From contig CAMOKF010000006.1 in the NCBI GenBank assembly GCA_946617625.1, positions 1-50,080 of the forward strand: a stretch of DNA of 50,080 nt, written 5' to 3'. Both the position numbers and the translations under genes were made by a program. The DNA comes from an uncultured Bacillota bacterium (GTDB lineage: Bacteria > Bacillota_I > Bacilli_A > RF39 > UBA660). Positions within the stretch are counted from its first letter, which is position 1. The number at the start of each line of letters is the position of its first letter. Under the pieces are notes generated by a model. It made no database searches, had not been told where the DNA came from, and saw only the letters and a list, made by a program, of their open reading frames with translations. Positions 13,495-13,740 of this stretch are shown one piece after another.

Positions 13495-13740
13495 ATGGAA
13501 ACAATTTTAGCATCTACAATTACTGCTATAGGTACTATGCTAGGTTTAGCATTCTTAGGTATTGGTATAGGTATTGGTATCTTAGGTTCTAAAGTAGCAG
13601 AAGCTGTTGGTAGAAACCCTGAAACTAAGGGAGATGTTGTTCATTCAGTTATGACGTTAATGATTGTAACAACAGTATTTTTACTATTCTTATTTGCATT
13701 TGTTTTCCTATTACTATATTTTAATCCAATGTTAAGCTAA
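13495..13740 (+). CDS. F-type ATPase c-subunit-like protein lacking the ion-binding carboxylate
   Basis: 81 residues forming the two-helix hairpin of c subunits. Helix 1 (about 5-31) has the glycine pattern GIGIGIG at 22-28. The polar loop [16 protein letters not shown] contains the conserved R-[NQ]-P at 40-42. Helix 2 covers about 50-76. Placing GRNPE on GRQPE of Bacillus c subunits puts residue T60 where the essential Glu/Asp should be, and helix 2 contains no acidic residue at all. Known c subunits bind H+ or Na+ with that residue, so this one should not transport ions in the usual way. The ribosome-binding site is AAGGAGG. The stator-like gene starts one base after its stop. A ring-forming rotor role remains possible. 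Confidence 0.85.

Follow-up and report, generated by a model that had tools for sequence, protein, structure and literature searches.

The F1-like X0 ATPases of mycoplasmas comprise the Type 2 system of gliding (G1-ATPase) and the Type 3 system (MIB-MIP) (PMC3369863, PMC11864180, PMC12994834). A mechanical output has been proposed for both, and how the rotation crosses the membrane to the surface proteins is an open question (PMC11864180, PMC12994834). The gene clusters of both types encode a 12-TM protein but lack genes for subunits c, b and delta (PMC3369863). In c subunits, the carboxylate of helix 2 has been described as universally conserved (PMC6063947). The c1 subunit of Acetobacterium woodii (PDB entry 4bem) features a second hairpin with Gln in place of this acid. 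F1-derived ATPases in mechanical work are already known. No earlier description was found of a c family that lacks the ion-carrying acid throughout, and the literature yielded no published account of a carboxylate-free c-ring or, for related gut bacteria, of an F1-like ATPase.

The window—the whole stretch of 50,080 nucleotides analyzed here—carries such a c subunit within a cluster of the order BIG, P502, c, b-delta, alpha, gamma, beta, epsilon, p182 and p241, with the following features:

6590 to 11953, forward strand: BIG, 1787 aa, with an N-terminal membrane anchor and a large, beta-rich extracytoplasmic part; homologue directly upstream in 37 of 50 loci.
11975 to 13483, forward strand: P502, a membrane-anchored surface protein of 502 aa; homologue in 39 loci.
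13482 to 13488, forward strand: AAGGAGG, the Shine–Dalgarno sequence of the c gene, by its sequence a strong ribosome-binding site.
13495 to 13740, forward strand: c-like rotor subunit of 81 aa with Thr60 at the helix-2 carboxylate column (Pfam PF00137, hhalign, AlphaFold and Foldseek, 48 homologues).
13742 to 14491, forward strand: b-delta fusion of the peripheral stalk, with an N-terminal TM helix, a coiled region and a delta-type C-terminal end (OSCP match in the L084 orthologue, hhalign, alignment).
14505 to 16994, forward strand: alpha subunit of 829 aa, of which ~380 form an acidic C-terminal extension (PF00006, E=1.5e-72).
16996 to 17766, forward strand: gamma subunit (PF00231, E=3e-21).
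17790 to 19154, forward strand: beta subunit, catalytic (PF00006, E=4e-68).
19138 to 19392, forward strand: epsilon subunit of 84 aa, beta-sandwich domain only, without the C-terminal inhibitory helices (PF02823 in the L084 and L089 orthologues, hhalign).
19389 to 19937, forward strand: p182, a membrane protein with 4–5 predicted spans; 48 loci share its position and spans.
19921 to 20646, forward strand: p241, a beta-rich anchored surface protein with an N-terminal TM helix; homologue in 45 loci.

The cluster is conserved in about 40 loci from several taxa, and among these loci a surface protein of ~2,800 aa often comes next after p241. The gene order is not fixed: in L090, L091 and L109, gamma lies farther downstream or after beta and not between alpha and beta. 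The gene of the septation ring regulator EzrA (window 4774–6486) is found just upstream of the cluster. A scan based on beta yielded 50 loci, all from metagenome-assembled genomes that are mostly incomplete and in many cases come from animal guts; the hosts are labelled Bacilli, Clostridia, Tenericutes, Ca. Pelethosoma, Ca. Scybalousia and Ca. Merdicola.

The ORF at 13495–13740 is a real F-type c subunit homologue. It matches PF00137 (ATP-synt_C) at E=1.3e-8, above the curated cut-off, and features two predicted membrane spans centered on residues 12–30 and 55–73. The first-pass annotation had matched GRNPE at residues 39–43 to the conserved loop of Bacillus c subunits, which places Thr60 on the carboxylate column; hhalign against 16 canonical c subunits of Bacilli, taken from other genomes of the same class, arrives at the same register (probability 98.5, residues 20–78 ungapped, Thr60 on the invariant Glu). 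AlphaFold2 predicts a hairpin of helices 2–40 and 42–75 at a pLDDT of 88.8. Every one of the 50 PDB matches that Foldseek lists for this model is an F-type c subunit; probabilities reach 1.00, and E-values exceed 0.04 because of the short chain. An alignment of the family finds the c subunits of A. woodii, chloroplast and Ilyobacter among the PDB sequences (E=6e-22 to 1.5e-11), the best match being A. woodii c1. Both predicted spans are free of Asp and Glu, as had been read from the sequence, and E36, E43 and D47 are located at or beside the cytoplasmic loop. A shifted alignment of helix 2 was considered as a way to recover an acid and rejected: helix 2 of the window's protein contains none, and in the profile alignment Thr60 stays on the Glu column.

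The loss of the carboxylate is a trait of the whole c-like family and not of one sequence. The family set consists of 48 sequences, 44 of them distinct, from the 50 loci and further genomes. The carboxylate column holds Ala in 19 of these, Thr in 16, Ser in 10, and Met, Ile and Phe in one each, and Asp or Glu in none (0/48). A sequencing error that removed a Glu codon is, hence, ruled out, since the 47 sequences from other genomes likewise lack an acid at this column. The helix-1 glycine pattern noted at first is a family property as well: glycines 22, 24, 26 and 28 and the GRNPE.K loop are invariant among the 40 aligned members. The weight once proposed for Thr59 and Thr60 is not supported, since both positions vary; with Ala as the commonest residue, position 60 leaves no specific conserved role for Thr. 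At the position where Na+ rings have Gln32, most members carry Ile. Four of the 48 homologues have Asp or Glu close to the outer end of helix 1, at residue 10. The homologue at L034:5532–5777, 96% identical to that of the window, carries Asp59, directly ahead of the canonical carboxylate column; no other of the 48 sequences has an acid in helix 2.

The c-like gene is under strong purifying selection and is conserved as much as beta. Its dN/dS amounts to about 0.01–0.23, with most values from 0.02 to 0.15, and the mean pairwise identity is 0.70 for both c and beta, followed by alpha (0.64), gamma (0.50), epsilon (0.47), P502 (0.37), b-delta (0.33) and p182 (0.25).

The catalytic alpha/beta part of F1 is present together with gamma, as judged by Pfam matches and motifs: the P-loop and GERxREG motif occur in 49 of 49 beta homologues, and the arginine-finger motif is kept in 40 of 41 alpha homologues. 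The peripheral stalk of F1Fo, formed by b and delta, is represented by the b-delta fusion, which matches delta over its C-terminal end (hhalign 67.8%); the OSCP profile exceeds its cut-off in the L084 orthologue only (E=7e-6), with weaker profile matches in other members. The epsilon subunit matches canonical epsilon (hhalign 83.7%), and the orthologues that match PF02823 end near the beta-sandwich, leaving no room for full inhibitory helices. Among relatives, alpha is between about 440 and 1413 aa long; in the window, its C-terminal extension (15840–16994) contains 28% Asp/Glu and 2% Lys/Arg and is probably disordered. None of the subunits reaches any NCBIfam cut-off; the families compared include atpA, atpD and the mycoplasma F1-like ones.

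The membrane part deviates from F1Fo in two respects. The c hairpin and its loop are present without the helix-2 Asp or Glu, and a subunit a with its stator Arg is missing: PF00119 was found neither in the window's own genome nor in any of the 59 searched genomes of its GTDB family, and in none of the 34 genomes hosting c-like loci, with bacterial F1Fo controls detected by the same search. A subunit a match in the cluster-bearing genome G059 was rejected as contamination because its contig carries mitochondrial genes; this contig (L096, G059:C25), with cox, cytb, nad and atp6, would give a false subunit a. An in-membrane stator in place of subunit a was not recognized in the cluster.

The cluster ATPase is genetically tied to anchored surface proteins. 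P502, BIG, p241 and the large surface protein are all anchored in the membrane at the N terminus and have a large part outside the cell. P502 consists of a TM helix (residues 7–37), a beta domain, an Asn-rich linker and a beta-rich C-terminal domain; residues 1–237 are modelled by AlphaFold at a pLDDT of 87.5, and comparison of the beta domain with the PDB by Foldseek and VIA-align gives weak matches (best Z 4.6), by which a relative is neither shown nor excluded. BIG has one hydrophobic span, at its N terminus, and its N-terminal domain is related to P502 (shared domain, hhalign 93.5%); its relative in L084 carries an FN3-like domain (fn3, E=2.6e-5). Of 296 genomes of the class, 6 encode P502; the ATPase is seen in each of the five that were examined for it (G000, G012, G059, G085 and G366), the sixth genome with P502 being G145. 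The large surface protein adjoins the cluster in many relatives, with two copies in G004. In the window's genome, an anchored surface protein of ~3,250 aa is encoded on another contig (L126:2229–11993, contig C14 of G000); this homologue is 50% identical over 2,000 aa and features a second hydrophobic span at the end. The large protein of L035 contains an ALK/LTK glycine-rich domain and that of L061 a GLUG motif. Within the window's family, the large protein is encoded by 5 of the 7 genomes with the cluster and by 0 of the 52 without it; the associated Fisher p=4e-6 is optimistic because related genomes are not independent. In four other genomes, the match covers just a short C-terminal part of the query.

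The rotor that has lost its acid and the giant surface proteins that adjoin it indicate that in these uncultured gut bacteria the ATPase, a nearly complete ATP synthase relative, probably does not move ions but uses ATP for mechanical work at the cell surface. The first-pass annotation had offered a ring that might still assemble, as a rotor either decoupled from ion flow or mechanically linked to another membrane partner, and the wider evidence favors this direction: the F1 catalytic motifs, b-delta, gamma and epsilon are encoded, subunit a and an acid-bearing c are missing from the genome, and anchored surface proteins share the cluster. The best reading, and a fairly likely one, is an ATP-hydrolyzing F1/c-ring motor without an ion pathway that is mechanically coupled to the surface proteins. 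The identity of c, its missing acid and the selection on it, the conserved cluster and the mycoplasma precedent argue for such a motor along with the points just named, whereas the lack of a recognized replacement stator, the poor conservation of p182 and Asp59 of L034 argue against it. We infer ring assembly, ATP-driven rotation and the transmission of torque to the outside as its steps. The c subunit would form a homo-oligomeric ring whose GRNPE loops bind gamma and epsilon; with the b-delta stalk holding it in place, alpha3beta3 would hydrolyze ATP and turn this ring in the membrane; and torque would pass to P502, BIG, p241 and the ~3,000-aa protein. Torque on anchored surface proteins would move an external fiber or adhesin, for which the proposal for mycoplasma gliding and MIB-MIP provides a precedent. 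The narrower version, in which the F1 motor rotates an ion-silent ring and a purely mechanical transmission turns or cranks the giant extracellular proteins, is put at slightly under an even chance.

The alternative that survives best, albeit as an unlikely one, is a carboxylate-free ring that only fastens an F1-like ATPase acting on the cytoplasmic side, with surface proteins that are co-inherited and not driven. It agrees with the lack of a recognized in-membrane stator, and a direct contact of the ring with the surface proteins is not known. The conserved b-delta stalk, however, has a purpose only where a turning rotor requires F1 to be braced, and the co-occurrence of ATPase and surface proteins speaks against a mere anchor as well.

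An ion pump in disguise is improbable. Such a pump would use another ion route, for example p182 as a non-homologous stator together with polar residues, or a mixed ring as in A. woodii. The 4–5 spans of p182, Asp59 of L034 and the Gln-bearing second hairpin of the best PDB match are in its favor. As a hidden subunit a, however, p182 was rejected (hhalign 0.7%, no conserved Arg), and its sequence is not conserved across the 48 loci (mean pairwise identity 0.25). The commonest residue at the ion site is Ala, and each genome of the window's family carries one c; a second, acid-bearing c that would complete a hetero-ring of the A. woodii type was not found there. In G085, the c of the cluster and that of a normal F1Fo may form a mixed ring.

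F1-related ATPases such as FliI and SctN serve export, and the constant neighborhood of surface proteins is compatible with an F1-like hexamer and ring that energize the export or assembly of these proteins and not their later movement. The chance of such a translocation machine is small: alpha, beta, gamma, epsilon, delta and c are all F-type and not FliI-like, proteins of an export apparatus are absent from the conserved cluster, and Sec could serve the anchored proteins.

The distribution bears on whether the system is a remnant. No F-, V- or A-type ATPase match of F1 strength was found in 51 of the 59 sampled genomes of the window's family. The c subunit occurs there only together with the cluster, and members without the cluster lack a strong rotary ATPase match, except for G003 with a partial beta beside an epsilon of canonical length at a contig end—probably contamination. 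Cluster-bearing members carry one alpha/beta pair each at F1 strength; third matches near 100 bits in some other host genomes are probably Rho-like. G085, a 2.5-Mb genome of another family of the class that is 98% complete, encodes a normal F1Fo in addition to the cluster, so the system is not a mere by-product of the loss of ATP synthase. Its cluster copy (L084, G085:C2:279000–291000) is divergent and has its own acid-free c with Ile at the carboxylate column. A decaying ATP synthase, a relic about to be lost in genome-reduced bacteria, fits a family otherwise devoid of rotary ATPases but is very improbable given the low dN/dS and beta-like identity of c, the kept F1 catalytic motifs, the stable cluster with non-ATPase partners and the normal F1Fo of G085.

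The preferred reading, the ion-silent mechanical motor, would endow gut bacteria with an ATP-powered external rotary device without proton or sodium coupling. A widespread and strongly selected acid-free c suggests that a rotor can be retained for a role other than ion transport. Since the membrane part is recognizable as a c subunit homologue, this idea is testable by structure and point mutation.

Compared with bacterial F1Fo, the cluster shares alpha, beta, gamma, the beta-sandwich of epsilon, the delta-type stalk end and the c hairpin with GRNPE and a glycine-rich helix 1. It differs by a c without the helix-2 carboxylate, the absence of subunit a, an epsilon without inhibitory helices, the fusion of b and delta, and the surface proteins in the cluster. 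The alternate F1F0 (N-ATPase type) families are not matched at their cut-offs (TIGR03324 and TIGR03305, 352 of 750 and 399 of 752 bits). The A. woodii hetero-ring likewise contains a c hairpin with a replaced carboxylate (Gln); however, it keeps acid-bearing hairpins and moves Na+, whereas no acid-bearing c is encoded in the present family.

The mycoplasma Type 2 and Type 3 systems likewise feature an F1-like ATPase beside large surface proteins, lack subunit a and are not expected to transport ions. Their membrane parts, a 12-TM protein and the 2-TM protein 5, are unlike those of the present cluster, in which no counterpart of the 12-TM protein 1, protein 2 or protein 5 was found; nor was homology of the cluster surface proteins to Type 3 protein 5. 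A reading of the 12-TM Type 3 protein as six c hairpins joined in one chain was rejected for want of a c-profile match. The alpha and beta subunits stay below the curated Type 2 and Type 3 NCBIfam families (378 of 600, 296 of 520, 402 of 570 and 370 of 850 bits). In the beta tree, the canonical enzymes are set apart from all others (99/94), with long branches involved; the tree permits, and does not prove, a common origin with mycoplasma Type 3. A single origin of the window clade, L084 and L089 is not rejected by the beta tree (AU p=0.21), nor shown by it, and is supported by the gene order and P502 that the three have in common. The present ATPase is best read as one that would function like the mycoplasma Type 2 and Type 3 F1-like ATPases but with other membrane parts, and its acid-free c family bears on how these motors transmit their rotation across the membrane.
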